Of a stretch of 64,000 bases of DNA, positions 36,465-50,198 are shown in pieces. The translations under genes and the position numbers were made by a program. The stretch lies in the NCBI RefSeq assembly GCF_039566955.1, contig NZ_CP154796.1, forward strand, positions 4,526,001 to 4,590,000, given 5' to 3'. Within the stretch, counting starts at the first letter, position 1, and the number at the start of each line of letters is the position of its first letter. The notes under the pieces are model-generated. The model worked only from the letters and a program-made list of their open reading frames with translations. It searched no databases and was not told where the DNA came from. Origin of the DNA: Micromonospora sp. DSM 45708. GTDB lineage: Bacteria > Actinomycetota > Actinomycetes > Mycobacteriales > Micromonosporaceae.

Positions 36465-37613
36465 ATGACCGATGTCACGGGGGAGGGCCGGGCGAACCGG
36501 TTCATGCTGGCGCTGCTGGCGCTGCATCGGTTCACCTGCCTGGCTCCGGCGGTCGTCACCTGCGCCTACGGCGCGTACCGCAGCGCCTGGACCAACCTCG
36601 GCCTGCTGGTCGCGGCGACGGCCTGGAACGTGGTGCTGTTCGGGGTGGCCCGGCGGCGGGGCTGGTTCCCGGCGGCGCTGGTGCACTTCGACGTCCTGCT
36701 GGCCGGCACGGTGCTGGTGGCGGTAACCGCCAACCTGACGACCGGCGTCACGGCCCCGAACTGGGGCAACCTGGTGGTGCAGGCGAGCGGATCGCTGGTG
36801 GGGGCGGCGCTGACCCGCCCCTGGGCCGTCGCGGGGAACCTGCTGGTGCTGATGCTCATCCAGTCGCTGGTGATCGTCGCCGTCGGGCCGGGAACGGGCC
36901 CCTCGGTGCCGGCGCTCGTCCACGCGGTCAACGGCGTGGCCTGCTTCGCGCTGGTCGCCGGCTTCGCCGTGCGCTACCTGCGTCGCACCGGACGCAACCT
37001 CGACCGGACCAACGCGCAACGGTTGGCGGCCGAGGCCGACGCCGCCGCCGATCACGCCCGTTTCGTCACCCGGCTCGCCCACCACCGGACGCTGCACGAC
37101 ACGGTGCTGACCACGCTGACGTTGATCGCCCGCGGCGTGGCCGACCCGGCCCGGCCCGAGGTACGCCGGCGCTGCGCCCGCGACGCGGAAGTGGTCCGGG
37201 GGCTGCTCGGCGACGGCTCCGACGTGGAGTTCGGCACGCTCGGCGAGGCGCTGCGGGACGTGGTCAGCGAGGCGTCCCTGCTCGGCCTGCGGATCCGGTA
37301 CCAGGGGGCGAGCGTCCCCGCGGACGTACCGCCCCAGGTCGTGGCCGCGCTGCGCGCGGCGACGCAGGAGGCACTGAACAACGTGGTCAAGCACGCCGGT
37401 GTGGATCGTGCCTGGCTGACCGTGACCGTGGAGGGCCGGCTGCTGCGGGTGACGGTGGTCGACCGCGGGCGCGGCTTCCACCCGGCGGAGGCACCCGTGG
37501 GCTTCGGCTTCCGGCACTCGATCGTCGACCGGGTGGCCGAGGTGGGCGGCCGGGCCCGCGTCTCCAGCGAGCCGGGGGCCGGGACGTGTGTGGAGCTGAC
37601 GTGGACCGGCTGA
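36465..37613 (+). CDS. Sensor histidine kinase (NarL/DesK type)
   Basis: About 382 residues from ATG 36465; other in-frame starts at 36411 (TTG) and 36429 (ATG) exist and none has a strong ribosome site. Five or six membrane helices form the sensor, with almost no outside domain. The phospho-acceptor His is in LAHHRTLHDTVLTTLTLIARG and the HATPase motifs are ATQEALNNVVKHAG (N box), VVDRGRGF (G1) and GFGFRHSIVDRVAEVGG. It overlaps the response regulator gene by 13 bases. The signal is unknown, probably membrane-related. Confidence 0.9.
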   Translation: MTDVTGEGRANRFMLALLALHRFTCLAPAVVTCAYGAYRSAWTNLGLLVAATAWNVVLFGVARRRGWFPAALVHFDVLLAGTVLVAVTANLTTGVTAPNWGNLVVQASGSLVGAALTRPWAVAGNLLVLMLIQSLVIVAVGPGTGPSVPALVHAVNGVACFALVAGFAVRYLRRTGRNLDRTNAQRLAAEADAAADHARFVTRLAHHRTLHDTVLTTLTLIARGVADPARPEVRRRCARDAEVVRGLLGDGSDVEFGTLGEALRDVVSEASLLGLRIRYQGASVPADVPPQVVAALRAATQEALNNVVKHAGVDRAWLTVTVEGRLLRVTVVDRGRGFHPAEAPVGFGFRHSIVDRVAEVGGRARVSSEPGAGTCVELTWTG

Positions 37614-38239
37614 TCCGGGTGGCGGCCGTCGACGACGACCGGATGCTGCTGGAGGGGCTGGACGCCTGGCTGGCGGGCGTCGGCGACCTGCGGCTGGTCC
37701 GCACGGCGGCCACGGTGGAGGGCCTGCTGCGGACGTTGACCGAGCCGATCGACGTGGTCCTGCTGGACCTGGTGCTGCGCGACGGCAGCGACGCGGCGGA
37801 GAACGTGCGGCGGTTGGTGACGTCCGGCCGCCGGGTGCTGGTGCTCAGCGTCTGGGCCCGCCCCGACCAGGTGGTGGCGACGTTCGCCGCCGGGTGCAGC
37901 GGGTACGTGACGAAGGACCACGACCTGGGGGCCCTGGCCGCCGCGGTGCGGGACGTGGCAGCGGGGCGGCCCGCGTTCTCGTCGGAACTGGCGTTCGCCT
38001 GCCTGGGTGACGCCCGGCCGACCCGTCCCCGGCTGTCCCCCCGCGAGCGCGGCGTGCTGCTCGCGTACGCCTCGGGCATGACGCTCACGGCCACCGCACG
38101 GCACCTGGGCATCAAGCCGGAGACCGCCCGCACCTACCTGGACCGGGTCAAGGCCAAGTACCACGACCTCGGCCGGCCCAGCCGCACGAAACTCGACCTC
38201 GCCGACCGGGTCCGTGAGGACCGTCTACAGGCCGGCTGA
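37601..38239 (+). CDS. NarL/FixJ-family response regulator
   Basis: 212 residues from GTG 37601, overlapping the kinase gene. The receiver domain has the acidic pair AAVDDDRMLL, the phospho-acceptor in DVVLLDLVLRDG (about residue 53) and the conserved Lys in GYVTKDHDL. The C-terminal LuxR-type helix-turn-helix is LSPRERGVLLAYASGMTLTATARHLGIKPETARTYLDRVKAKY. It works with the kinase encoded upstream. A 14-base hairpin follows, and the large glycoconjugate operon begins 237 bases downstream, so it is a possible target. Confidence 0.93.
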   Translation: MDRLIRVAAVDDDRMLLEGLDAWLAGVGDLRLVRTAATVEGLLRTLTEPIDVVLLDLVLRDGSDAAENVRRLVTSGRRVLVLSVWARPDQVVATFAAGCSGYVTKDHDLGALAAAVRDVAAGRPAFSSELAFACLGDARPTRPRLSPRERGVLLAYASGMTLTATARHLGIKPETARTYLDRVKAKYHDLGRPSRTKLDLADRVREDRLQAG

Positions 38240-38286
38240 GACGGCCCCGGGCACCCACGAACCGCCCGACCGCCGTCCTCGCGGAC

Positions 38287-38318
38287 GTCCGCTGTCCCCC
38301 ACCCGGGGGACAGCGGAC
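38287..38318 (+). terminator. Hairpin terminator after response regulator
   Basis: A perfect 14-base stem (38287-38300 with 38305-38318) and four-base loop, 48 bases after the stop codon. Confidence 0.75.
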
Positions 38319-38475
38319 GGGTCGGTCCGTCCCCCGAACATCCGGCATGACGAGATCGACACACGTCGCTAGCTTGGGATCGCACAGCGTCGCCACACCG
38401 TCACCCGGGGGTTCGGGGGGCCGGTCCCGTCGGCGCTGGCACTCCCCCACCGGTCGTCCGAGGAAAGGCCACCGC

Positions 38476-39897
38476 ATGCCCCACCTGATCGGTATCGACG
38501 AGGCGGAACAGCTCGGCACGAAGCGGGTGCACCAGCTGTACCGCGACCATGTCAGTCGCAGTCAGGTCTCCCTGATGACGACGTTCGGCTTCGGCCGGGA
38601 ACTGGTGGACCACGCCGAGGGGGTGTGGATCCACCTCCGGGACGGCCGCCGGGTGCTGGACTTCTCGGGCGGCGTCGGCGTGCTGAACCACGGGCACAAC
38701 CATCCGCGCATCCTGGCCGCCCGGCGGCGCTTCGCCGAGGCCCGGCGGATGGAGGTGCACAAGGCGTTCTTCTCGCCGTACACGGCGGCGCTGAGCCACA
38801 ACATGGCCGCCCTGCTTCCCGGCGACCTCTCCGTCTCGTACTTCCCGAACTCGGGCGCGGAGGCGAACGAGGGCGCGGTGAAGATGGCCTACAAGTACCA
38901 CGGCGGGCGGCGCAACACGGTGCTGCGCGCCGACATCAGCTTCCACGGCAAGACCCTCGGCGCGGGCAGCCTCACCGGCTCGTCGGAGAACGCGTTCCGG
39001 TTCCCCGGCCTGCCCGGCATCGTCGTCTACCCGTACGGTGACCTCGCCGCCGTCCGGGCGGCCGTCGACGCGGCGCGCGCCCCGGACGGCGGCTGCGACG
39101 TGTACGCCATCCTGGTCGAACCGTTCAGCGCCTCCACGATGCGCCGGTGGAGCGACGACGACCTGCTGGCCCTGCAACGGCTCTGCCGCGAGCGGGACAT
39201 CATCATGATCTTCGACGAGGTCTACACCGGGTGGGGCAAGACCGGCAGCCTCTTCAACTTCATGCGGTGCGAAGGGCTGCTGCCGGACATCCTCACCTAC
39301 TCCAAGTCGCTCGGCGGCGGCAAGGCCTCGATCGCCGGCTACACGGCCCGCGAGCCGGTGTTCCGCCGGGCGTACGACCGGCTGACCGACGTCATCCTGC
39401 ACAGCACCACCTACTACGGCTTCGGGGAGGAGACCGCCACCGCCCTGGAGGCCGTCGCGGTGGTGGTCGACGACGACTACCCCGCCCGGGCCCGGATGCT
39501 GGAGGCGGTGCTGCAACCCGGCCTCGACCGCATCGCCAAGGCGTACCCCGAGGTGGTCGGCCGGGTCGACGGCGCCGGCGCGTTGTGGGGCGTCTTCCTC
39601 GGCGGCGGTCCCGGTCTGCTCGACCTGGCCGGCCGGCTGATGCCCGGCTTCACCCACGACCCGCAGTTCCGCACCAAGCTCATCACCCTGTCGGTGATCG
39701 CGCACCTGTTCCGCGAGCACGGGATCATGACCTACTACAGCCCCAACGCCGACAATCCGCTGATGGTCGCGCCGAGCCTGGTGGCCACCGGTGAGGACGT
39801 GGAGCACTTCCTCACCGCGCTGGACGCGACGCTGTCGCGGGGGCTGCCCCGGCTGCTGACCGCCTTCGTGCGGGAGCGGGTGACGTCGCGATGGTGA
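38476..39897 (+). CDS. Class III PLP-dependent aminotransferase
   Basis: 473 residues from ATG 38476 after GAGGAAAGG. Motifs include FPNSGAEANEGAVKMAYKYH (phosphate binding), ISFHGKTLGAGSLTGS, IIMIFDEVYTGWGKTG and the Schiff-base Lys in DILTYSKSLGGGK (about residue 277). Family members transaminate omega-amines, glutamate-1-semialdehyde or sugars; the substrate is not evident. It opens a ten-gene operon and overlaps the epimerase gene by seven bases. Confidence 0.92.
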   Translation: MPHLIGIDEAEQLGTKRVHQLYRDHVSRSQVSLMTTFGFGRELVDHAEGVWIHLRDGRRVLDFSGGVGVLNHGHNHPRILAARRRFAEARRMEVHKAFFSPYTAALSHNMAALLPGDLSVSYFPNSGAEANEGAVKMAYKYHGGRRNTVLRADISFHGKTLGAGSLTGSSENAFRFPGLPGIVVYPYGDLAAVRAAVDAARAPDGGCDVYAILVEPFSASTMRRWSDDDLLALQRLCRERDIIMIFDEVYTGWGKTGSLFNFMRCEGLLPDILTYSKSLGGGKASIAGYTAREPVFRRAYDRLTDVILHSTTYYGFGEETATALEAVAVVVDDDYPARARMLEAVLQPGLDRIAKAYPEVVGRVDGAGALWGVFLGGGPGLLDLAGRLMPGFTHDPQFRTKLITLSVIAHLFREHGIMTYYSPNADNPLMVAPSLVATGEDVEHFLTALDATLSRGLPRLLTAFVRERVTSRW

Positions 39898-40934
39898 CCA
39901 GCGGCCACGTCGTGGTGACCGGGGCCAGCGGGATGCTCGGCTCGCACCTGGTCCGCCGGCTGCTCGCCGAGGGACACCGGGTGCACGGGGTGGACCTGCT
40001 GCCCGCCGCGCACACCCATCCGGAGCTGGCCCACAGCCAGGGCGACGTCCGCGACGCCGCGTTGCTGGCGCGGGTGTTCGCCGACGCGTCCGCCGTGGTG
40101 CACTGCGCTGCCGCGCTGCCCAGCTACCCGGCCGAGATGATCCGGTCGATCATCGTGGACGGCACGCACGCGGTGCTCGGCGCCGCCCGCCGGGTGCAGG
40201 TGCCCCGGGTCGTGCACATCTCCTCCACCGCCGTCTACGGCCTGCCCCGGCTGGTGCCGACGCCCGAGGACCACCCGCGGGAGCCGGTCGACCCGTACAC
40301 CCGGGCGAAGGTCGAGGCGGAGCTGCTGGTGGAACGGTTCCGCGCGGAAGGGCTCTGCGTCCCGGTGCTGCGCCCCAAGACGTTCCTCGGGCCGGGCCGG
40401 ATGGGCCTGTTCGCGATGCTCTTCGAATGGGCCGAGGAAGGCCGTCACTTCCCGGTGCTCGGTCGCGGCGACGTGCGGGTGCAGATGTTCGCCGTCGAGG
40501 ACCTGGTCGACGCGGTGCTGACCGTGCTCGCCGCCCCGGAGGACGTCGCCGGGGACACGTACAACCTCGGCGCCGCCGAGTTCGGCACGCTCCGCGAGGA
40601 CTTCCAGGCGGTGCTCGACGCCGCCGGACACGGCCGGCGGGTGGTCGGGCTGCCGGCCGCGCCGACGCTCGCGGCGCTGCGGGCGCTGGAGCGCAGCGGC
40701 CTCTCCCCGGTGTACGGGCGGCTGCTGTACAAGCTGCGCGCCGACTCGTACGTGAGCATCGACAAGGCCCGCGACCGGCTCGGTTTCACGCCCCGCTTCG
40801 CCAACCGCGAGGCGATCCTCGCCACCTACCGGTGGTGGCGGGCGAACCGGGGCGCGGCGGCGAGCGGGGCCGGCCGGACCAGCCGGGAACCCTGGCGACA
40901 GGGCGCGCTCTCCCTCGCGAAGATCTTCTTCTAG
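39891..40934 (+). CDS. NAD-dependent epimerase/dehydratase (extended SDR)
   Basis: 347 residues. The nucleotide-binding motif is VVVTGASGMLGSHLVRRLL and the active site is Ser-Thr...Tyr...Lys: ISSTAVYGLP with YTRAK. It resembles GalE/WcaG-type sugar-nucleotide epimerases or reductases, and the C-terminus has the usual YVSIDKARDRLGFTPRF. It overlaps the aminotransferase gene and precedes the UbiA-like gene by 11 bases, so it likely prepares a sugar donor for the pathway. Confidence 0.9.
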   Translation: MVTSGHVVVTGASGMLGSHLVRRLLAEGHRVHGVDLLPAAHTHPELAHSQGDVRDAALLARVFADASAVVHCAAALPSYPAEMIRSIIVDGTHAVLGAARRVQVPRVVHISSTAVYGLPRLVPTPEDHPREPVDPYTRAKVEAELLVERFRAEGLCVPVLRPKTFLGPGRMGLFAMLFEWAEEGRHFPVLGRGDVRVQMFAVEDLVDAVLTVLAAPEDVAGDTYNLGAAEFGTLREDFQAVLDAAGHGRRVVGLPAAPTLAALRALERSGLSPVYGRLLYKLRADSYVSIDKARDRLGFTPRFANREAILATYRWWRANRGAAASGAGRTSREPWRQGALSLAKIFF

Positions 40935-40945
40935 GGCGCGGGCCG

Positions 40946-41908
40946 ATGCCTCTCCTCGACTCCGCTCCCGCCGCCGTGCCGGCCCTGGAGCCGCCGACCA
41001 CCCGCCGACCCCGGCTGGTCGTCGACCTGCTCCGCCTGATCCGCCCCGGCCACTGGGTGAAGAGCCTGCTGGTCGTCCCGCTCCCCCTGCTGGACCCGCT
41101 GTCCTGGCACCTGGCCGGGCTGACCCGGCTGGGCTGGTCCGTCGTCGCCTTCGTGCTCGCCGCCTCGGCCGTCTACGTCGGCAACGACGTGGTCGACCGG
41201 CACCGGGACGGTCACCACCCGGTGAAGCGGCACCGGCCGGTGGCGTCCGGCCGGGTGCCGGTGCCGGTGGCGTACGCCTGCGCCGTCGTGCTCCTGCTCG
41301 GCCTCGCGCTGCTGCTGGCCGCCGGCCCGGTCGGACCGGCCTGGCCGGTGCTTGCCTACCTCGCGCTCAACGTCTGGTACAGCCGGGGCCTGAAGCACGT
41401 CCCACTGGTCGAGGCCGGTGTGGTCGCGACCGGGTTCGTGCTGCGCGCCGTGCAGGGCTACCTGGCCGTCGGCGCGGCCGTGTCGGCCTGGCTGCTGGTC
41501 ACCGTGTTCGCCGGCTGCCTGCTGCTGATCGTCGGCAAGCGCCGCCAGGAACTGCTGGACGCTGGGGTGGCCCACCGGCCCGCCCTGCGCGGCTGGTCGG
41601 TGGAGCTGGCCGGGCACCTGCTCCAGCTCAACGGGCTCCTGGCGGTCACCGCCGGGCTGGTCTGGCTCGGCACGGAAGCACCGTTCGACCCGTACCGGGA
41701 CGCCGCGATGCTGCTGTCCACCCCGTTCGTCCTCTACCTGATGTCGCGGTACCTGCAACTGGCCCTCGTCCGGCGGGCCGGCGGCGACCCGGTCCGGTTG
41801 CTGTCGCGGGACCGGGCGGTGATCGCCGCCGCCGTGCTCTGGGCGGCCAGCCTCGGCGCGCTCTACGCCGCCATCCGGTTCCCGGCGATCGTCGCCGCCC
41901 TGTCCTGA
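40946..41908 (+). CDS. UbiA-family prenyltransferase, decaprenyl-phosphate phosphoribosyltransferase-like
   Basis: 320 residues from ATG 40946 with eight to nine membrane helices. The first Asp-rich motif NDVVDRHRDGHHPVKRHRPVASG closely follows the pattern of mycobacterial DPPR synthase (Rv3806c type), which joins phosphoribose to decaprenyl phosphate. The start region RLIRPGHWVKSLLVVPLPL is also shared. The second motif lies near LLIVGKRRQELLD. If the family call holds, this enzyme makes a polyprenyl-phospho-pentose, the lipid donor for the transferases encoded next. Confidence 0.85.
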   Translation: MPLLDSAPAAVPALEPPTTRRPRLVVDLLRLIRPGHWVKSLLVVPLPLLDPLSWHLAGLTRLGWSVVAFVLAASAVYVGNDVVDRHRDGHHPVKRHRPVASGRVPVPVAYACAVVLLLGLALLLAAGPVGPAWPVLAYLALNVWYSRGLKHVPLVEAGVVATGFVLRAVQGYLAVGAAVSAWLLVTVFAGCLLLIVGKRRQELLDAGVAHRPALRGWSVELAGHLLQLNGLLAVTAGLVWLGTEAPFDPYRDAAMLLSTPFVLYLMSRYLQLALVRRAGGDPVRLLSRDRAVIAAAVLWAASLGALYAAIRFPAIVAALS

Positions 41909-41909
41909 A

Positions 41910-41957
41910 CCCGCGCCCCCGCCCCCACCCGCGCCCGCGCCCGCGCCCGCGCCCGCG
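41910..41957 (+). repeat. C-rich hexamer repeat between UbiA-like and GT2 genes
   Basis: Several copies of CCCGCG fill the 61-base gap. The minus strand has at least seven runs of three or more G spaced by one to three bases, a G-quadruplex-type sequence. The AAGGAGA ribosome site of the next gene follows immediately. Confidence 0.85.
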
Positions 41958-41969
41958 TCAAGGAGAGCC

Positions 41970-43001
41970 ATGACCGCGCACACCCCGACCGTCTCGATCG
42001 TCGTTCCCAACTACAACCACGCCGACTCGCTGCCGCTGACGCTGCCGGCGCTGCTGGCGCAGACCCATCCCGCCACCGAGATCATCTTCGTGGACGACCG
42101 GAGCACCGACGACTCGGTGGCGGTGGCCGAGTCGCTCGGCGTGCCGGTGGTCCGCACGCCGCACAACGGCGGCCCCGCCCTGGCCCGCAACGTCGGGGCC
42201 GCCCGGGCCAACGGCGACGTCCTGCTCTTCGTCGACTCCGACGTGGAACTGCCACCGGACACGGTGACCCGGGCGGTACGGCTGCTCGCCGCCGACCCGC
42301 GGGCCGGCGCGATCTGCGGCATCCTCGACGAGGTCCCGCTGGTCCGGGACAGCCTCGTCCAGGAGTGCCGGTGTCTCCAGGCGCACTGGTGGCGGATCAG
42401 CTCGTTGGGCGACGTCAGCTTCCTGTTCACCGCCATCTGCGCCATGCCGGCCCGGGTGTTCGCCGAGATCGGCCCGTTCCACGAGGGGCTGCGCCAGACC
42501 GAGGAGGTCGAGTACGGCGAGCGGCTCACCGGCCGGTACCCGATCCGGCTCACCGACGCCCTGCACGGTCGGCACCGCGACGACGACCGGCTCGCTCCGA
42601 TGCTGCGCAAGGTGTTCCACCGCAGCCGGTTGCGGATGCCGCTGTACGCGTACCGGCGTCGCGCCGCGCAGGGCTTCGAGACCGCGTCCCGGATGTGGGC
42701 CGCCGTCAGCGCCCTGCTCGGCACGCTCGCGCTGCCGTTGCCGCTGCTGGCCGGGGTGCTCGGGGCGCTGCCCTTCCTGGCCTTCCTCCTGCTCTTCCTG
42801 GCGTGCGACGCCGGCATGTACCGGTTCGTCGCCCGCCGCCGCGGACCGGCGTTGCTCGCCGCGTTCGTCGGGGTGCAGTGGCTGATCAACCTGGCGATCG
42901 CCGCCGGCGCCGCCGCCGGCGCGGCGCAGTGGCTCTGCTCCCGCTCCTTCCGTCACCTCTACGAGGGCGGCCCACACCCGGCCGCACAGGTGACGGCATG
43001 A
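41970..43001 (+). CDS. GT2 glycosyltransferase with C-terminal membrane helices (copy 1)
   Basis: 343 residues. The GT-A domain shows VSIVVPNYNHADSLP, IFVDDRSTDDSVAVAES, GGPALARNVGAARANGDVLLFVDSDVELP and a TEEVEYGERLTGRYPIRL region in place of the usual ED base motif. Two to three membrane helices close the protein (ALLGTLALPLPLLAGVLGALPFLAFLLLFLAC and following). It is similar to the GT2 proteins at 44131 and 45149. It overlaps the next gene by four bases (ATGA). Confidence 0.9.
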   Translation: MTAHTPTVSIVVPNYNHADSLPLTLPALLAQTHPATEIIFVDDRSTDDSVAVAESLGVPVVRTPHNGGPALARNVGAARANGDVLLFVDSDVELPPDTVTRAVRLLAADPRAGAICGILDEVPLVRDSLVQECRCLQAHWWRISSLGDVSFLFTAICAMPARVFAEIGPFHEGLRQTEEVEYGERLTGRYPIRLTDALHGRHRDDDRLAPMLRKVFHRSRLRMPLYAYRRRAAQGFETASRMWAAVSALLGTLALPLPLLAGVLGALPFLAFLLLFLACDAGMYRFVARRRGPALLAAFVGVQWLINLAIAAGAAAGAAQWLCSRSFRHLYEGGPHPAAQVTA

Positions 43002-44134
43002 GCGAACGCACCGAGCGCAGCGAGGGCCATGAGCGCATGCCCGACCGGCGGCGGTGGTGTACGGCCACCCGGCTGCTCTGCGCGGCGGCGTTCGGCTGGG
43101 CGGTGTTCACCGGCCTGCACCGGGCGTTGAGCGGGCGCTGGTGGTTCTGGCTGCTGCCGGACCTGCTGCCACCGGCGGCGTACCTGCTGGTGCCGGTGGC
43201 GCTGGCGGCGGCCGTACCGGCGGCCCGGGCGCTGCGCCGGCCGCTGCCCGCCCGGCCGGCGGCGGCGGTGCTGGCGGCGGCGGCCACCGCGTTCGCGGTC
43301 GGCCTGCCCGACGGGGGCCTCAACCGGTACGCGTGGGCGTCCCGCCCCGCCCCGCCGTCGGGCGCGCTGACGGTGCTGGCCTGGAACACCGGCTACTGGG
43401 ACCAGCACGACGACCCGGAGGCGTTCCTGCGTTTCCTGCTCGACCGGCGGGCCGACGTCTACCTGTTGCAGGAGCACCTCTACTGGGACGACGCGGCCGG
43501 GCTGGCCGGGGCCCGGCCCGCCCCCGACCCGGAGCGGCTGCGCCGGGCGTTCCCCGGCTACACCGTCGTCGCCCGTGGCGAACTGCTCACCCTGTCCCGG
43601 TTCCCGGTGGTGGCCCGGCCGGCGGTCGGTCCCGACGCGGACCTCGCGGCCGACCCGGGCGCCGACTTCGGGCGGGTCTTCACCGCTGCCAAGGTGCTCC
43701 GCGCCGACCTGCTGGTGGGCGGCCGGGTGCTGTCCACGTACAACGTGCACCTGCCGGTGCAGGTGAACCTCGCGCCGAGGCGGTTCCTGGGCTACGTGCG
43801 GGAGCGCGACCGGGCCCGGCGGGCGCAACTCGCCGGGCTGCGGGCCGACCTCGCCGCCAACGCCGGGCCGGTGCTGGTCGCCGGCGACTTCAACACCACG
43901 GCCGCGATGGGCGACCTGCGCCCGTTGCGGGACCGGCTGCGCGACGCCGCGGACGCCAACGCCGACGTGTACCCGGCGAGCTGGCCCGCCGGTCGGCTAC
44001 CGGCGGCCTGGCGGCTGGACTGGACGCTGACCTCCCGGACGGTACGCGTGCACCGGTACACGCTGGACGATCCGCGCGGGCTGTCCGACCACCGCGCCCA
44101 GACCGCCCTGATCACCCTCGGGGAGGGGTCGTGA
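42998..44134 (+). CDS. Membrane-anchored endonuclease/exonuclease/phosphatase (EEP) family protein (copy 1)
   Basis: 378 residues. The first 110 residues hold three or so membrane helices, the rest an extracytoplasmic EEP domain: LTVLAWNTGYWD (first Asn), ADVYLLQEHLYW (metal Glu), YNVHLPVQ, VLVAGDFNTTAAMGDLRPL (catalytic Asp/Asn) and LSDHRAQTA (catalytic His). EEP enzymes cleave phosphodiester bonds in nucleic acids, inositol phosphates or sphingomyelin. Facing outward in this operon, it more likely cuts a lipid-linked or polymer phosphodiester than DNA. The N-terminus MSERTERSEGHERM is low-complexity. Confidence 0.85.
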   Translation: MSERTERSEGHERMPDRRRWCTATRLLCAAAFGWAVFTGLHRALSGRWWFWLLPDLLPPAAYLLVPVALAAAVPAARALRRPLPARPAAAVLAAAATAFAVGLPDGGLNRYAWASRPAPPSGALTVLAWNTGYWDQHDDPEAFLRFLLDRRADVYLLQEHLYWDDAAGLAGARPAPDPERLRRAFPGYTVVARGELLTLSRFPVVARPAVGPDADLAADPGADFGRVFTAAKVLRADLLVGGRVLSTYNVHLPVQVNLAPRRFLGYVRERDRARRAQLAGLRADLAANAGPVLVAGDFNTTAAMGDLRPLRDRLRDAADANADVYPASWPAGRLPAAWRLDWTLTSRTVRVHRYTLDDPRGLSDHRAQTALITLGEGS

Positions 44135-45147
44135 GCCGTACGCCGACCGTCTCGGTCGTGATCCCGGTCTGGAACGCCGCGAAGACGCTGCGCCACTGCC
44201 TGGACGCAGTGGCGGCGCAGACCCACCCGCCGGTGGAGGTGCTCGTCGTCGACGACGGCAGCACCGACGGGTCGGCGGCGGTGGCCGCCGCGGCCCGTGT
44301 CCGGGTGCTGGTGCAGCCGGTCAACGGTGGGGTCTCCGCGGCCCGCAACGCCGGGGTGGCGGCCAGCCACGGTGAGGTGGTCTTCTTCGTCGACTCCGAC
44401 GTCGCGCTGGCCCCGGACGCGATCGCCAACGCGCTGGCGGTGCTCGCCGCCGACCCGGACTGCGGCTGCGTCTACGGCGTCTACGCCCCGGAGCCGCTGA
44501 TCGACGACGGGCCGGTCGAGCGGTACCGGGTGCTGCACCTGCACTCCGCGCTGACCCGGGCGGTCGGCCCGGTCGACACCGCGGTCTTCGCGCTCGCCGC
44601 GGTGCCCCGCGCCGTGCTGAGCGAGCTGGGCCCGTTCGACGAGAACCTGCGCAGCGCCGAGGACGACGAGTACAGCGAGCGGTTGCTGACCCGGTACCGG
44701 ATCCGGCTCACCGACACCGTCGTCGGTCGGCACGACGAGGCGGACCGGCTGCTGCCGCTGCTGGGAGAGCAGTACCGGCGGGCCCAACTGCTCCGCTGGT
44801 CGCTGCGCAACCGCTACCGCCGGCGCGGTCTGGCGCTGAACCGCAGCCTCGGCGTGCTGGCCGCCGGGCTGGCCGTGCTCACCCTGCCGGCGGCGCTGCT
44901 CGGCCCGTACGGGGCCGGTGTGCCAATGCTCTGCCTGGCGGTCTTCGCCGCCGCCGACCCGCCGCTGGTGGTGGCGCTGCGCCGGGGCGGCGGGGCGTTC
45001 CTGGCCCGTGCCCTCGGCATCCACCTGCTGGTGAACGTCGCGCTGATCGCCGGTGCCGCGGTCGGCCTGGTCCGGTCCCTGGTGGACCCGTCGTTCGGCC
45101 CGTCGTCGCGTGCCGCCCTCCGTCCCCTCGACTCGAAAGGTTGGTGA
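44131..45147 (+). CDS. GT2 glycosyltransferase with C-terminal membrane helices (copy 2)
   Basis: 338 residues from GTG 44131, overlapping the EEP stop as GTGA. It has VSVVIPVWNAAKTLRHCLDAVAAQTHPP, VVDDGSTDGSAAVAAAA, GGVSAARNAGVAASHGEVVFFVDSDVALAP and SAEDDEYSERLLTRYRIRL, with EDDEYS as probable catalytic base region, followed by two or three membrane helices. It resembles the other two GT2 proteins of the operon throughout. Confidence 0.9.
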   Translation: MSRTPTVSVVIPVWNAAKTLRHCLDAVAAQTHPPVEVLVVDDGSTDGSAAVAAAARVRVLVQPVNGGVSAARNAGVAASHGEVVFFVDSDVALAPDAIANALAVLAADPDCGCVYGVYAPEPLIDDGPVERYRVLHLHSALTRAVGPVDTAVFALAAVPRAVLSELGPFDENLRSAEDDEYSERLLTRYRIRLTDTVVGRHDEADRLLPLLGEQYRRAQLLRWSLRNRYRRRGLALNRSLGVLAAGLAVLTLPAALLGPYGAGVPMLCLAVFAAADPPLVVALRRGGGAFLARALGIHLLVNVALIAGAAVGLVRSLVDPSFGPSSRAALRPLDSKGW

Positions 45148-45148
45148 G

Positions 45149-46171
45149 GTGGTGACCGTCTCCGCACCCCTCGTCTCGGTCATCGTGCCCAACTACAACT
45201 ACGCCCGCACGCTGCGGCTCTGCCTGGCGGCGCTGCGGCGGCAGACCCACCGGCCGGTGGAGGTGATCGTGGTCGACGACGGCAGCACCGACGACTCGGT
45301 GGCGGTCGCCGAGTCCTTCCCCGAGGTGCGGGTGCTGCGTACACCTGTCAACAGCGGGCCCTCGGTGGCGCGCAACCTCGGCGCGGAGGCCGCCACCGGG
45401 GAGGTCCTGATGTTCGTCGACTCGGACGTGGCGCTGGCCCCGGACGCGGTGGCCGTCGCGGTGGCGATCCTGCGCGACGAGCCCGGCGTCGGCGCGGTCT
45501 GCGGCAACTACGACACCGTCCCGCTGATCGACGGCACCTTCACCAAGGACTACCGCAACCTGTACCGGCACTGGTATTTCCGCGCCGCCGAGGGCAGCAT
45601 CACCGGTTTCCTGTCGACCGCGATCCTGGCCGTGCCGACCAGCGTCTGGGCGCAGGTGGGCCCGTTCAACCCCCGGCTGACCCAGAGCGAGGGCGCGGAC
45701 GTCAGCGAACGGCTCACCGACCGGTACGAGGTGCGGATGACCAGCCGGGTCATCGGCCGGCACGACGACGACGCGACGCTGCGGATCGCGCTGGGCAAGG
45801 TGTTCACCCGGACCCGGGTGCACATCCCGTTCTTCCTGCACCGACGGCGGGTGGTGGGGGTGGTGACCTCCGCCGAGTCCGGCACCGGGCTGGCGTCCTG
45901 GCTGGCCGCCGCCACCACACCGCTGCCACTGCTGGCCGGTCCGGGGTGGGCCGTCGTGCCGCTGCTGCTGCTGGCGCTCTGGCTGCTCAGCGACGCCCGG
46001 ATGTACCGCTACGTGCGCGCCGTGCGGGGCCTGCCCTACACGCTGCGCTTCGCCGGCCTGCACCTGCTGGTCAGCCTCACCATCGGGGTGGGCGTGGCGG
46101 TGGGGCTGGTGCAGTGGCTGCTCTCCCGCCGCTTCCGCCGCCTCTACGAGCAGCCGGCGGTGATCGCGTGA
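45149..46171 (+). CDS. GT2 glycosyltransferase with C-terminal membrane helices (copy 3)
   Basis: 340 residues. GTG 45149 (or 45152) is chosen because GAAAGG lies eight bases upstream and the previous gene ends at 45147. Motifs are VSVIVPNYNYARTLRLC, VVDDGSTDDSVAVAES, GPSVARNLGAEAATGEVLMFVDSDVALAP and SEGADVSERLTDRYEVRM, which lacks the ED pair of copy 2, as in copy 1. The membrane tail ends RRFRRLYEQP, much like SRSFRHLYEGG in copy 1. Its stop overlaps the second EEP gene by four bases. Confidence 0.9.
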   Translation: MVTVSAPLVSVIVPNYNYARTLRLCLAALRRQTHRPVEVIVVDDGSTDDSVAVAESFPEVRVLRTPVNSGPSVARNLGAEAATGEVLMFVDSDVALAPDAVAVAVAILRDEPGVGAVCGNYDTVPLIDGTFTKDYRNLYRHWYFRAAEGSITGFLSTAILAVPTSVWAQVGPFNPRLTQSEGADVSERLTDRYEVRMTSRVIGRHDDDATLRIALGKVFTRTRVHIPFFLHRRRVVGVVTSAESGTGLASWLAAATTPLPLLAGPGWAVVPLLLLALWLLSDARMYRYVRAVRGLPYTLRFAGLHLLVSLTIGVGVAVGLVQWLLSRRFRRLYEQPAVIA

Positions 46172-47274
46172 CCGCCGTGCGGACGCCACCGCACACCGAG
46201 CCGGCGGCGGGCCGGGCGGGCCGGGCCGGTCGGCTGCCCGGCACCCGCACCGGCGCGGTGCTCACCGGCCTGGCCGCGGCGTGGCTGATCCTCGTGGTGG
46301 CGCACCGGCTGCTCAGCGGCCGGTGGTGGCTGTGGCTGGCGCCGGAGCTGATTCCGCCGCTGGCGTTCGTCGCCGTACCGGTGCTGCTGCTCGGCTCCGT
46401 GCCGCTGGCCGGACGGCTCCGGGCCCGGCTGGCGCTGCTCGCGGTGACCGGGCTGCTGCTCGGCGCGGACCTGGCCGGGCTGAACCCGGCCGTGTGGCGC
46501 ACCCCGCCGCCGGCGCCGGCGGGCGCGCTGCGCGTGGTCTCGTGGAACACGACGGTGTGGAACTCCACCGACGACCACGACGTGTTCTACGCCTCGCTGA
46601 CCGCCCGGCACGCCGACGTCTACCTCCTCCAGGAGTACAAGCCCGACGACGACCCGGCACGCCGCGACGCCGACCTGGCCCGGCTGCGGCGGGAGTTCCC
46701 CGGCTACCAGGTGGTGCTGCGCGGGGAGTTGGTCACCGTGACCCGGTTCCCGGTCGTCGCGACGACCGCGTTGCCGGCCGACCCGCCGCCGGGCGCGGAC
46801 TGGCGCACCGACTACTGGGAGGTCAAGTCGCTGCGCACCGACCTGCGGGTGGGAAGCCGCACGGTGTCGGTCTACAACACCCACATCCTGGTGCCGCTGG
46901 ATTTGAGCAGCCCGCTGCGCGAGCTGTTCTACGACCGCCGGCACGAGTTCTTCCAGCGGCGCGAGACGCAGTACCGGGCGCTCGCCGCCGACCTGGACCG
47001 CAATCCGAACCCGGTGCTGGTCGCCGGCGACCTCAACACCAGCCCGGCCATGGGCGACCTGGCCCGGCTCCGCGGCCGGCTCACCGACGCGGCCCGGGCC
47101 AGCGGGTCGGCGTACCCGACGTCGTGGACGATCGCCGGCCGACGCTGGTGGCGGCTGGACTGGACGTTCGTCTCCCCCGGATGGACCGTGCACCGCTACC
47201 GGCTGCGCGACGCGCGGGGCATGTCCGACCACCGGGTGCAGGACGTCGTGCTCTCCCTCGGCGGGTCCCGGTGA
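46168..47274 (+). CDS. Membrane-anchored EEP family protein (copy 2)
   Basis: 368 residues from GTG 46168. The layout is the same as for the protein at 42998: an N-terminal group of three membrane helices including HRLLSGRWWLWLAPELIPPLAF (compare HRALSGRWWFWLLPDLLPP), then the EEP domain with RVVSWNTTVWN, ADVYLLQEYKPDD, YNTHILVPL, VLVAGDLNTSPAMGDLARL and MSDHRVQDV. The two are clear paralogues from a duplication of a GT2-EEP gene pair. The catalytic residues are kept in both copies. Confidence 0.87.
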   Translation: MTAVRTPPHTEPAAGRAGRAGRLPGTRTGAVLTGLAAAWLILVVAHRLLSGRWWLWLAPELIPPLAFVAVPVLLLGSVPLAGRLRARLALLAVTGLLLGADLAGLNPAVWRTPPPAPAGALRVVSWNTTVWNSTDDHDVFYASLTARHADVYLLQEYKPDDDPARRDADLARLRREFPGYQVVLRGELVTVTRFPVVATTALPADPPPGADWRTDYWEVKSLRTDLRVGSRTVSVYNTHILVPLDLSSPLRELFYDRRHEFFQRRETQYRALAADLDRNPNPVLVAGDLNTSPAMGDLARLRGRLTDAARASGSAYPTSWTIAGRRWWRLDWTFVSPGWTVHRYRLRDARGMSDHRVQDVVLSLGGSR

Positions 47275-48257
47275 GCCGGGCGCGGGTGTGGGCCGCGCTG
47301 CGCGTGGTCGGGTACGCCGCCGTACTGGCCTTCCTCGGCTGGCAGGTGTGGCGGGTACGGCACGGGATGGCGGACAGCCTGCGGACGGTCGGCTGGGGCG
47401 CGGCGCTGACCGCCGGGGTCCTCGCCGCGGTCGGCGGCGTGCCCGGCTTCGTCGGCTGGCGGGTCCTGCTGGCCGGGCTGGGCACGAAACTGTCGCTGCG
47501 CGACGCCACCCGGGTCTACTTCCTCGCCGGGCTGACCCGCTACCTGCCGGGCGGGGTGTGGCCGACGGTCGCGCACGCCGCGATGGCCCGGCCGCTGCGC
47601 CAACCGCCGGCCCGGCTCGCCGCCGCGTTCCTGGCCAGCCAGGGACTCGCGGCGGTGTCCGGGGTGCTCGTCGGCGTCCTCGCGCTGCCCTGGCTGCTCG
47701 GGCAGAGCCGGTGGTGGTGGCTGCTGCTGCCGGCCTGCGTGGCCGCCGCCGCGCCGGTGCTCGCCCCGGGCCTGCTGGGCCGGCTGCTGGGCGCCGCCGC
47801 GCGGTTGCTGCGCCGGGGCGACACCGGGCCGCTGCTGCCCGGCCGCCCGACGCTGCTGGGCGCCACCGGGCTGATGGTGCTCGGCTGGCTGATCAGCGGC
47901 CTGCACATCACCGTGCTGGCGGTCGCCCTCGGCGCCGCGCCGGGCCCGGCGCTGCCGCTGGGCGTCGGCGGTTTCGCCCTCTCCGTGGTCGCCGGGCTCT
48001 GCGCCGTGGTGCTGCCGACCGGGCTCGGCGTACGCGAGGTCGCGCTCGCGCTCACCGTCGCCACCCTGGTCGGCGGCCCGGACCTGGTGACCCTCGTCGC
48101 GTTGAGCCGGGTGCTGCTGACCGTCGGCGACATCGGCTCGACGCTCGTCGTGCTCGCCCTGCTCGCCGTCACCGGCCGTCGCCGGGGCGGCCCACCGCAC
48201 GCCGCCACCCCGTCCCGTCCCGCCCCTGCCGACCGTCTCGAAGGAGTCTCCTCATGA
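47271..48257 (+). CDS. Integral membrane protein, lysylphosphatidylglycerol-synthase-TM/flippase-like
   Basis: 328 residues with about eight membrane helices, start GTG 47271 overlapping the EEP stop. Family marks are the central LTRYLPGGVWPTVAHAAMARPLRQP and the VVLPTGLGVREVALAL segment, seen in the LPG_synthase_TM (UPF0104) group. Proteins of this group include lipid flippases of MprF, so it may move the lipid-linked product of the operon across the membrane, an inference from context. The Ala/Pro tail is disordered. Confidence 0.82.
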   Translation: MSRARVWAALRVVGYAAVLAFLGWQVWRVRHGMADSLRTVGWGAALTAGVLAAVGGVPGFVGWRVLLAGLGTKLSLRDATRVYFLAGLTRYLPGGVWPTVAHAAMARPLRQPPARLAAAFLASQGLAAVSGVLVGVLALPWLLGQSRWWWLLLPACVAAAAPVLAPGLLGRLLGAAARLLRRGDTGPLLPGRPTLLGATGLMVLGWLISGLHITVLAVALGAAPGPALPLGVGGFALSVVAGLCAVVLPTGLGVREVALALTVATLVGGPDLVTLVALSRVLLTVGDIGSTLVVLALLAVTGRRRGGPPHAATPSRPAPADRLEGVSS

Positions 48258-49264
48258 CCGCCACCGACCTGCCGTCCGCGGCGTCCCCCGTCACCGGCGG
48301 CGGGCTGCGCGGCGGTGTCCGCCGGCTGCGCAGCGCCGTGCGTACCGCCTCCGGGGTGGAGGTGCTCTCCGCCCTGCCGTTCCTCGCCGGCCCGTTGGCG
48401 CGGCTGGAGCGCCGCCCCCTGCTGCACGGGCTGGTGCTCTCCGCGTTCGGGCTACGCCGGCCGATCTTCGTGGACTTCCCGGTGAGCCCGGAGCCGCGCT
48501 TCGGCTACGGCCGCCCCGACCATCCGGGCATCACCGAGCTGCTCGACCGGCGGCGGGACGCGTACGCCGCCACGCTCCGGCGGTTCCTCGGTCACGCCGA
48601 CCGGCTCGCCGCCGTCCCGCTGCACGGCGACCTCGACTCGGGCGAGCCGTACTGGCGCAACGGCTGGCTGCCGCCGCTGGACGCGCTGGCGCTCTACGGT
48701 TTCCTGGTCGAGCACGAACCACGGCGGTACGTCGAGATCGGCTCCGGCAACTCGACCAAGTTCGCCCGCCGGGCGGTCCGCGACCACGGGCTGCGTACCC
48801 GGATCACCTCGATCGACCCGGCGCCCCGGGCCAGCGTCGACGTGCTCTGCGACGACGTGGTCCGCGCGCCGCTGGAGCGGGCCGACCTGAGCCTGTTCGA
48901 CGAGTTGGACGCCGGTGACGTGGTCTTCTTCGACGGCTCGCACCGCAGCTTCATGGGCTCGGACGTGACGGTCTTCTTCTTCGAGGTGCTGCCCCGGCTG
49001 CGGCCCGGCGTGTTGGTGCAGGTGCACGACATCATGCTGCCCCGCGACTACCCACCGCAGTGGCGCTACCGGCACTACAACGAGCAGTACCTGCTGGCCG
49101 CGTTCCTGCTGGCCGCACCGGAGCGCTGGGAGATCGAGCTGCCCAACGCGTTCGTGGCCGGCGACCCGGAGCTGCGCGGGGTCGCGGCCCCGCTGTGGCG
49201 GCGTCTCGGGCTGGCCGAGCAGTTCCTGCCCGCGTCGTTCTGGCTGCGTCCGCGGGCGGACTGA
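48254..49264 (+). CDS. Class I SAM-dependent methyltransferase-like protein
   Basis: 336 residues from ATG 48254, ATGA overlap with the previous gene. The core has RYVEIGSGNSTKFARRAV (SAM site), SIDPAPRASVD, AGDVVFFDGSHRSFMGSDVTVFFFEVLPRLRPGVLVQVHDI, matching the Methyltransf_24 type found beside glycosyltransferases. The 130-residue N-terminal extension is not recognised. It is the last gene of the operon and is followed by a 12-base hairpin. A role in methylating the finished sugar or its lipid is likely. Confidence 0.85.
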   Translation: MTATDLPSAASPVTGGGLRGGVRRLRSAVRTASGVEVLSALPFLAGPLARLERRPLLHGLVLSAFGLRRPIFVDFPVSPEPRFGYGRPDHPGITELLDRRRDAYAATLRRFLGHADRLAAVPLHGDLDSGEPYWRNGWLPPLDALALYGFLVEHEPRRYVEIGSGNSTKFARRAVRDHGLRTRITSIDPAPRASVDVLCDDVVRAPLERADLSLFDELDAGDVVFFDGSHRSFMGSDVTVFFFEVLPRLRPGVLVQVHDIMLPRDYPPQWRYRHYNEQYLLAAFLLAAPERWEIELPNAFVAGDPELRGVAAPLWRRLGLAEQFLPASFWLRPRAD

Positions 49265-49291
49265 ACGGCCCGCGCCGCGGCGTCGGTGTCC

Positions 49292-49318
49292 GGTGTCAGC
49301 CCGTGGCGGGCTGACACC
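49292..49318 (+). terminator. Hairpin terminator closing the ten-gene operon
   Basis: Perfect 12-base stem GGTGTCAGCCCG/CGGGCTGACACC with loop TGG, 27 bases after the last stop codon. Confidence 0.8.
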
Positions 49319-49346
49319 GCACCCGGTCGGGCGTGAGGATGAGGGC

Positions 49347-50198
49347 ATGAGTTCGTCGCACCCCGTCGTCGACCCCGGTCCCGAGCCGCACCCGACCGCG
49401 GGCTCCGCCCCGGATCACGGCTACCTGCTCGACAACGCCCGGGCCGAGGCGGGCGAGCGGTTCACCTGGCTGGCCGAGCTGTTCGACGGTGTCACGCGTG
49501 GGCACTTCGACCGGCTCGGGGTGGGGCCGGGCTGGCGCTGCTGGGAGGTCGGCGCCGGTGGCCCCGGCATTCCCGAGGCCCTGGCCACGGCCGTCGGGCC
49601 AACCGGTCACGTGCTGGCCACGGACCTCGACCCGGCCTGGTTGGACCCGCACGGCGGGTACGAGGTGCGCCGGCACGACATCGTCGCGGACCCGCCGCCG
49701 CAGCCCGGCACGTTCGACCTGGTCCACGCGCGGCTCGTGCTCCTTCACGTGCCCGACCGGGTCCGGGCGTTGGCGACGATGGCGGCGGCGCTGCGGCCCG
49801 GCGGTTGGCTGGTGGTGGAGGACGCCGACACCGAGTTGCAGCCACTGGCCTGCCTCGACGAGGTCGGCCCGGCGCAGCGGCGCGCCAACCGGCTGCGGCG
49901 GGCCGTCCGGGAGTTGCTGACCCGCCGCGGCGCCGATCTGCGCTTCGGCCGGACGCTGCCGCGGGCGTTGCGGGCGGCGGGGCTGGTCGACGTGACGGCC
50001 GCCGGCTGCTTCCCGATCGGTGGGCTGGCCTGCGACCGGCTGGAAGCCGCGACGGTGCGCATGGTCCGTGGCGAGTTGCTCGCCGCGGGGCTGGCCGACG
50101 ACGTCGAGATCGACGCCCACCTGGCCGCCGTCGAGGCCGGCGAACTCGACCTCACGCTCGCGCCGCTGATCTCGGCCTGGGGACGCCGCCCGGGCTGA
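49347..50198 (+). CDS. SAM-dependent methyltransferase (UbiE/Methyltransf_25 type)
   Basis: 283 residues from ATG 49347; GAGGATGAGGG precedes it. The SAM-binding motif is CWEVGAGGPGIPEALATAVG with VLATDLDPAWL, then TFDLVHARLVLLHVPDRVRALATMAAALRPGGWLVVED. The C-terminal half may bind the substrate. It lies after the operon terminator, so it is probably expressed separately. Nothing in its context shows the substrate. Confidence 0.88.
   Translation: MSSSHPVVDPGPEPHPTAGSAPDHGYLLDNARAEAGERFTWLAELFDGVTRGHFDRLGVGPGWRCWEVGAGGPGIPEALATAVGPTGHVLATDLDPAWLDPHGGYEVRRHDIVADPPPQPGTFDLVHARLVLLHVPDRVRALATMAAALRPGGWLVVEDADTELQPLACLDEVGPAQRRANRLRRAVRELLTRRGADLRFGRTLPRALRAAGLVDVTAAGCFPIGGLACDRLEAATVRMVRGELLAAGLADDVEIDAHLAAVEAGELDLTLAPLISAWGRRPG

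Follow-up and report, generated by a model that had tools for sequence, protein, structure and literature searches.

The window analysed here, a 64,000-nucleotide stretch of the genome of Micromonospora sp. DSM 45708 (positions 4,526,001-4,590,000 of a single 7,016,307-base contig), holds a tight operon of ten genes at 38476-49264, among them a UbiA-family protein resembling the mycobacterial synthase of decaprenylphosphoryl-5-phosphoribose (DPPR) and two phosphohydrolases of the EEP superfamily. In gene order, the operon comprises:

38476..39897, + strand: class III pyridoxal phosphate (PLP) aminotransferase, AT3 (PF00202, 1.2e-57)
39891..40934, + strand: extended short-chain dehydrogenase/reductase (SDR) of epimerase/dehydratase type, Epi (PF01370, 6.2e-42)
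40946..41908, + strand: UbiA-family, polyprenyl-phosphate phosphoribosyltransferase-like protein (PF01040, 9e-20; PDB 8j8j, 1e-31; PRPP-site residues)
41970..43001, + strand: GT2 glycosyltransferase a, hydrophobic C-terminal segments (PF00535; hydropathy)
42998..44134, + strand: EEP phosphohydrolase a (EEPa), three N-terminal helices, EEP domain predicted outside
44131..45147, + strand: GT2 glycosyltransferase b, hydrophobic C-terminal segments (Pfam; hydropathy)
45149..46171, + strand: GT2 glycosyltransferase c, hydrophobic C-terminal segments (Pfam; hydropathy)
46168..47274, + strand: EEP phosphohydrolase b (EEPb), architecture as EEPa (PF03372, 7.8e-15)
47271..48257, + strand: stand-alone MprF-type flippase-like membrane protein (LPG_synthase_TM, below cut-off)
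48254..49264, + strand: S-adenosylmethionine (SAM) methyltransferase (Methyltransf_24; PF13578, 2.1e-13)

An open reading frame (ORF) check with translations found all ten ORFs. A codon log-odds gene caller selected them as well, though not independently, the ten being part of its training set of 15 window genes (these and five others); it was used in place of GC-based gene calling, which chose shadow ORFs and was dropped. Six of the nine junctions overlap (five by 4 nt, one by 7 nt), and the remaining three are gaps of 1, 11 and 61 nt. The Pfam families of the ten proteins (Aminotran_3, Epimerase, UbiA, three Glycos_transf_2, two Exo_endo_phos, LPG_synthase_TM and Methyltransf_24) are, like the ORFs and the close junctions, those of the initial annotation, with the ninth gene falling below the Pfam cut-off.

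Searched against the PDB at E 0.01, the UbiA protein matched only Rv3806c-type entries, 8j8j (1e-31) and 8j8k (3.2e-22), and it contains the motif NDVVDRHRDGHHPVKRHRPVASG for which it had been singled out. We compared twelve residues of the phosphoribosyl pyrophosphate (PRPP)/Mg site, numbered on the Rv3806c chain and drawn from the residue list of PMC10994848: R22, K28, Y70, N73, D77, K87, R90, Q135, Y138, K143, Y157 and K208. Nine are identical in the window protein (R22, K28, Y70, N73, D77, K87, R90, Y138 and K143), and each of these is kept in 74 to 79 of the 79 cluster UbiAs described below (with five gaps at the first two). Q135, which touches ribose O3, is replaced by N, a residue found in 62/79 cluster UbiAs and in 0/30 ordinary ones; Y157 is replaced by F, likewise in 29 of the 30 ordinary UbiAs, and K208 by P. 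Since nine of the twelve PRPP-site residues of the mycobacterial DPPR synthase are kept, the earlier assignment of this protein as DPPR-synthase-like, with a polyprenyl-phospho-pentose as the probable donor that it makes, is well supported. In a UbiA tree all 72 dereplicated cluster sequences group without outsiders; we do not press the clade strongly, because the node support is only 0.615. A separate locus without EEP (L172) pairs an ordinary DPPR-synthase-type UbiA with an adjacent Epi-like SDR (182 bits) and perhaps belongs to another pentose-epimerising pathway.

The operon belongs to a widespread family of clusters. We assembled 79 loci (about 11 to 31 kb long): the window, ten found with the UbiA query, twelve with the EEPa query, one locus of Nonomuraea gerenzanensis, one on a Streptomyces plasmid, and a further 54, of which 51 came from 54 family-profile matches (the other three being already included) and three from a search of 246 genomes of the class. 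Some loci may represent one strain held in two collections, L135 and L142 overlap, and dereplication at 95% UbiA identity leaves 72 loci. Gene presence was scored by tblastn at 1e-8, and 'SARP-like' denotes similarity to one of three seeds. The UbiA query matched in 14 of 61 genomes, the source genome included. Cluster-type UbiA occurs in 8/36 other genomes of the genus, and their loci carry the neighbourhood, as does a second, divergent copy in the source genome (L031, 1852500-1872400), which has SARP-like genes, a GT2-flippase fusion and a second EEP. With the UbiA profile, the 246 genomes of the class gave cluster-type proteins in four (355-471 bits; next best, 209 bits), and the family Micromonosporaceae, at E 1e-70, in 44/150 genomes and 19/44 genera, with up to three per genome. 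The EEPa query of genome contigs returned four loci from Micromonospora, six from Streptomyces and one each from Sphaerisporangium and Acrocarpospora; Nonomuraea is a further carrier.

Because these twelve loci were selected by EEP, bracketed figures show the counts among the 66 UbiA-chosen loci as well. Epi is present in 78 of the 79 loci (65), GT2 in 77 (64), the flippase-like gene in 76 (63), EEP in 75 (62), AT3 in 67 (54), a SARP-like gene in 54 (54) and PAP2 in none (0). The full ten-gene order recurs in eight, always on one strand: the window, four Micromonospora loci (L040-L043) and three loci of one other genus of the family (L144, L149 and L164). The gene set thus stays together in the loci compared, with the core genes in nearly all of the 66; a scattered arrangement in relatives, which would have spoken against the initial annotation, is rejected. 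Other partners vary: across the 79 loci we found aldo/keto reductase in 31, GT4 in 23, methyltransferase in 23, polysaccharide deacetylase in 22, GT87 (which we take to be a GT-C type family) in 17, Methyltransf_24 in nine and sulfotransferase in one. The cluster spans also hold 39 unlabelled genes, of which 25 were scanned against Pfam; among the 25 of 33 families listed for these were seven short-chain dehydrogenases, five polysaccharide deacetylases, two MFS proteins and single matches to GT4, UDP-sugar dehydrogenase, GH3, a solute-binding protein, an amidohydrolase, HIUase and a TnpB-like protein.

Individual clusters show further features. A TnpB/IS605-OrfB-like gene lies between UbiA and GT2 in one locus (L130:8126-9331), and a protein with a phosphodiester glycosidase (NAGPA) domain adjoins the N. 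gerenzanensis cluster (L052:25373-26944). In Streptomyces sp. SAT1 a short version of the cluster sits on a 343 kb linear plasmid (L053), neighboured by a distant class III aminotransferase, a phytanoyl-CoA dioxygenase and DUF6309.

The distribution of phosphohydrolases separates these clusters from ordinary DPPR synthase loci. As controls we took 25 ordinary loci, L035-L039 and 20 hand-picked from the 246-genome class table: PAP2 lies beside the UbiA in 19/25 and EEP in 0/25, whereas the cluster loci have EEP in 62/66 (75/79 overall) and PAP2 in 0/79. An earlier control of 26 ordinary loci with flanks of about 1.5 kb had given PAP2 in eight and EEP in none. In one control, the gene at L037:7938-9797 is presumably AftB, given its place beside GlfT2 and PAP2, and has no Pfam match. 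This exchange suggests that the novel element of the family is an EEP standing in for PAP2 at cluster-type, DPPR-synthase-like loci.

Both window EEPs share the fold and the catalytic residues of the EEP superfamily and appear to be membrane-anchored with the EEP domain predicted to face outward, in line with the initial annotation. A key residue is changed in 7/99 aligned EEPs, EEPb not being among them; one EEP each of Sphaerisporangium (L044:7491-8804) and Acrocarpospora (L045:7711-8913) has lost catalytic residues (N to D, D to N, D to S/T) and is a possible pseudoenzyme partner. EEPa is 90% and 82% identical in the Micromonospora loci L040 and L041, respectively. A homologue search gave 186 matches, and among the 120 listed those with an organism name were all actinobacterial. 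The closest solved folds are DNA-repair nucleases; a PDB sequence search gave no match with the EEP sequence and two marginal ExoIII matches with an EEP profile.

Epi directly adjoins UbiA on the same strand in 70/79 loci, and the Y and K of its YxxxK motif are present in 79/79 and the T and G of TG in 70/79 (nine gaps); as it adjoins UbiA and carries YxxxK, one may fairly guess that it epimerises the lipid-linked pentose. AT3 has kept lysine K277, presumably the PLP lysine, in 69/69 aligned sequences, and we would guess that it places an amine on a keto- or aldehydo-pentose. Gene 9 encodes a 328-aa helical membrane protein in which the PF03706/MprF flippase fold was found; LPG_synthase_TM scores 29.8 bits, under the 33.4 cut-off, with no other Pfam match and with no C-terminal aminoacyl-PG synthase domain of MprF proper recognised by Pfam. 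Its substrate would be a lipid-linked sugar.

Four features flank the operon:

36465..37613, + strand: histidine kinase, HATPase_c (Pfam; upstream in 5/5 close loci)
37601..38239, + strand: LuxR/NarL-type response regulator (Pfam; upstream in 5/5 close loci)
38293..38312, no strand assigned: palindrome TGTCCCC-N6-GGGGACA, candidate operator, within the 236-nt gap between response regulator and operon
49291..49319, + strand: 13-pair hairpin after the last gene, without T-run (fold of 49262-49345)

The two-component system directly upstream, which the initial annotation left out, is kept in all five close loci (the window and L040-L043), and the window copy has it in place of a SARP (BTAD) regulator, none of which lies beside the cluster. 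The palindrome occurs at a single place across the 7.0 Mb genome; its core, GTCCC...GGGGGACA, is present in 5/5 aligned spacers of the close loci and the full pattern in 3/5, making it a candidate operator. It may alternatively be part of a terminator of the response-regulator gene, the region 38240-38330 having a folding energy of -59 kcal/mol (z -4.2). A sigma-70 scan returned no promoter-like site. At the other end, where a terminator had been annotated, a strong hairpin does follow the last gene (-52.2 kcal/mol, z -3.1 for 49262-49345), but no T-run accompanies it and it was not picked up by the terminator scan. Within the operon, the UbiA-GT2 spacer (41909-41969) is a CCCGCG-type simple repeat, and its length varies across relatives (61, 47, 34, 23 and 78 nt). 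A NACHT-domain ATPase gene (34117-36207, minus strand) lies just upstream of the two-component system, and another SAM methyltransferase gene (49347-50198), outside the conserved ten-gene order, directly after the hairpin.

Taken together, we consider there to be roughly an even chance (about 0.5) that the operon encodes a dedicated polyprenyl-phosphate-based pathway for a pentofuranose-containing saccharide, in which EEPs facing outward take the place of PAP2, release the product, or both. UbiA would move 5-phosphoribose from PRPP onto polyprenyl phosphate, a step well supported by sequence. The SDR, working by itself or together with the class III aminotransferase, may then epimerise and/or aminate the lipid-linked pentose, after which membrane-anchored GT2s would attach more sugars or generate additional lipid donors, with a cap put on by the methyltransferase. 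The MprF-type protein, by its fold, could flip the lipid-linked sugar outward, where the EEPs would take off the 5-phosphate, as PAP2 does beside ordinary DPPR synthases; since two EEPs are present, one of them may cut the polyprenyl phosphodiester and free the product. Here the operon would be under the control of the two-component system, which may read the palindrome at 38293-38312; SARP-like regulators accompany most relatives.

The role is most likely that of a specialised, perhaps secreted, saccharide rather than the basic wall polymer of the genus. Pfam recognised no polymerase, ligase or GT-C among the ten operon proteins, so the product is more probably a short saccharide than a polymer; specialised metabolism is favoured by the SARP-like regulators (54/79 loci), the patchy spread and the presence of up to three copies. 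The surface glycoconjugate of the initial annotation is a possible product only, as the same observations fit a specialised saccharide at least as well. A tentative extension, somewhat less likely than not, is that these clusters make actinobacterial saccharide natural products of a class not described before, with a PRPP-derived (amino)pentofuranose, MprF-type flipping and EEP-mediated dephosphorylation and/or lipid release outside the cell.

Several observations weigh against the pathway proposed here. Every activity of the operon, and its product, is inferred from sequence, and the window copy has neither a SARP nor a recognised GT-C. The best NCBIfam model for the window UbiA, NF008978, scores 164.1 bits where the cut-off is 207, and because it falls below the DPPR synthase cut-offs we treat it as a separate subfamily. 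AT3 is absent from 12/79 loci and so is not core; all twelve have GT4, which also occurs in 11 loci with AT3. The substrate of the EEPs cannot be read from a fold common to nucleases, sphingomyelinases and phosphatases. Most of them (73/99) adjoin a GT2 gene on the same strand, and many loci hold two EEPs, so that a pure 5-phosphatase role fits poorly. Four of the 66 UbiA-chosen loci have no EEP (two of them, L143 and L163, are on short contigs), and 6/25 ordinary loci are likewise without a recognised PAP2. Finally, PAP2 scores above the cut-off at 11 places in the genome, and any of these could take off the 5-phosphate, though not one closely resembles the Rv3807c type (25.7 bits at best).

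The readings that compete with this pathway share its first steps, so the probabilities we attach to them overlap. The operon might decorate the wall or surface, in line with the initial annotation, as a variant of three-component pentofuranosylation that puts pentofuranose side chains on a wall glycopolymer and in which EEPs only dephosphorylate the donor and the GT-C is encoded elsewhere. Its first step and SDR epimerase would then be as in the Citrobacter youngae O1/O2 systems (Kelly et al. 2024, PMC11127046), which decorate a polymer outside the cytoplasm, and GT87 is indeed present in 17/79 loci. We nevertheless find wall decoration doubtful, given that the window operon has no recognised GT-C, that cluster-type UbiA is confined to 8/36 other genomes of the genus and 44/150 of the family, and that several copies per genome and SARP-like regulators occur. 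It is also rather unlikely that the EEPs serve release only, severing the polyprenyl phosphodiester once the oligosaccharide, a secreted product, is complete, while a housekeeping PAP2 takes the 5-phosphate: the exchange between PAP2 (19/25 ordinary, 0/79 cluster) and EEP (0/25, 62/66) makes better sense if both enzymes carry out one common dephosphorylation step.

Two further readings were considered. The SARP-like regulators in 54/79 loci, together with the aminotransferase, methyltransferases, aldo/keto reductase (31/79) and single sulfotransferase, would suit a tailoring cluster, in which a polyprenyl-phospho-(amino)pentose is the glycosyl donor and genes at another place in the genome make the non-sugar core of the natural product. 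This seems distinctly unlikely, since no polyketide synthase (PKS) or nonribosomal peptide synthetase (NRPS) modules were met in the scanned sample (25/39 unlabelled span genes, 25 of 33 families listed), and KR-domain matches went with short-chain-dehydrogenase matches. That the EEPs are extracellular nucleases in an incidental neighbourhood would agree with the nearest solved folds and with the ExoIII matches, the only PDB matches of the EEP profile; the presence of EEP in 62/66 UbiA-chosen loci against 0/25 controls makes it very improbable.

If the proposed pathway is correct, EEP would be a third kind of phosphohydrolase in polyprenyl-phospho-pentose pathways, beside the PAP2 and HAD types, and its fold would be newly used on a lipid-linked sugar, while the MprF fold would gain a sugar-lipid job. 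The operon would also mark a common actinobacterial gene-cluster family (44/150 Micromonosporaceae genomes and other genera), whose product was not found in print in a limited search. The PAP2-to-EEP swap yields a testable prediction, with one enzyme and one lipid substrate. The 'new pathway' of the initial annotation stands in part: we met no description of the cluster family, but polyprenyl-phospho-pentofuranose pathways outside arabinan have been published (PMC11127046). No description of the gene combination, nor of EEPs in such a setting, which the initial annotation took to be undescribed, was found in the open-licence literature, a search that did not cover the slashed spelling of EEP, so that absence from print is hardly tested.

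Among known systems, the mycobacterial arabinan pathway (Rv3806c, the PAP2 protein Rv3807c, DprE1/E2 and EmbABC) shares with the operon a DPPR-synthase-type UbiA with a mostly kept PRPP site, but no PAP2, GlfT2 or Glf lies near the window UbiA. The other arabinan genes had been called absent. For EmbABC (PF04602) this was borne out, with no match in the whole source genome (of 14 controls only C. glutamicum was positive); for DprE1 we can say that none was recognised in the genome through the broader ALO family (PF04030), which was searched without a DprE1 model and without a search for DprE2. Of the two PF04030 proteins found, one is closest to xylitol oxidase; the other most resembles FAD oxidases/lactone dehydrogenases and matches DprE1 no more than weakly and partially (42 bits). 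Arabinose formation by DprE1/2 therefore looks unlikely, since both ALO proteins are nearer to other oxidases and EmbABC is absent, and with no Emb, no recognised DprE1 and no PAP2 neighbour a mycobacterial-type arabinan was rejected. SARP-controlled biosynthetic gene clusters are a general class in actinobacteria; the cluster family resembles them in its SARP-like genes (54/79 loci), modular gene content and patchy spread, and differs in that no PKS/NRPS module was present in the genes scanned and that the window copy has a two-component system. Compared with MprF, whose flippase domain is N-terminal, the protein here stands alone at 328 aa without the synthase domain. The EEPs share fold and key residues with superfamily members such as ExoIII and neutral sphingomyelinase, but have three N-terminal helices and a domain predicted outside, and are genetically tied to GT2 and UbiA.

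The C. youngae O1/O2 systems provide a parallel outside mycobacteria. There, according to Kelly et al. (2024, PMC11127046), a polyprenyl-phosphoribose synthase using PRPP serves pentofuranose addition together with a phosphatase domain, a proposed flippase and a GT-C, and one serotype has an SDR epimerase that converts ribose to xylose. In those systems the HAD phosphatase domain is fused to the synthase, the flippase is of MATE type and the transferase is a GT136 GT-C; the window operon has EEPs, an MprF-type flippase-like protein, GT2s and a class III aminotransferase instead. Pfam matched no HAD phosphatase among its ten proteins, and no GT-C pentofuranosyltransferase was recognised in the ten genes, GT87 being present in 17/79 loci. 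What the two have in common is a UbiA-type synthase using PRPP, an SDR with TGxxGxxG and YxxxK, and a separate membrane protein proposed as the flippase.

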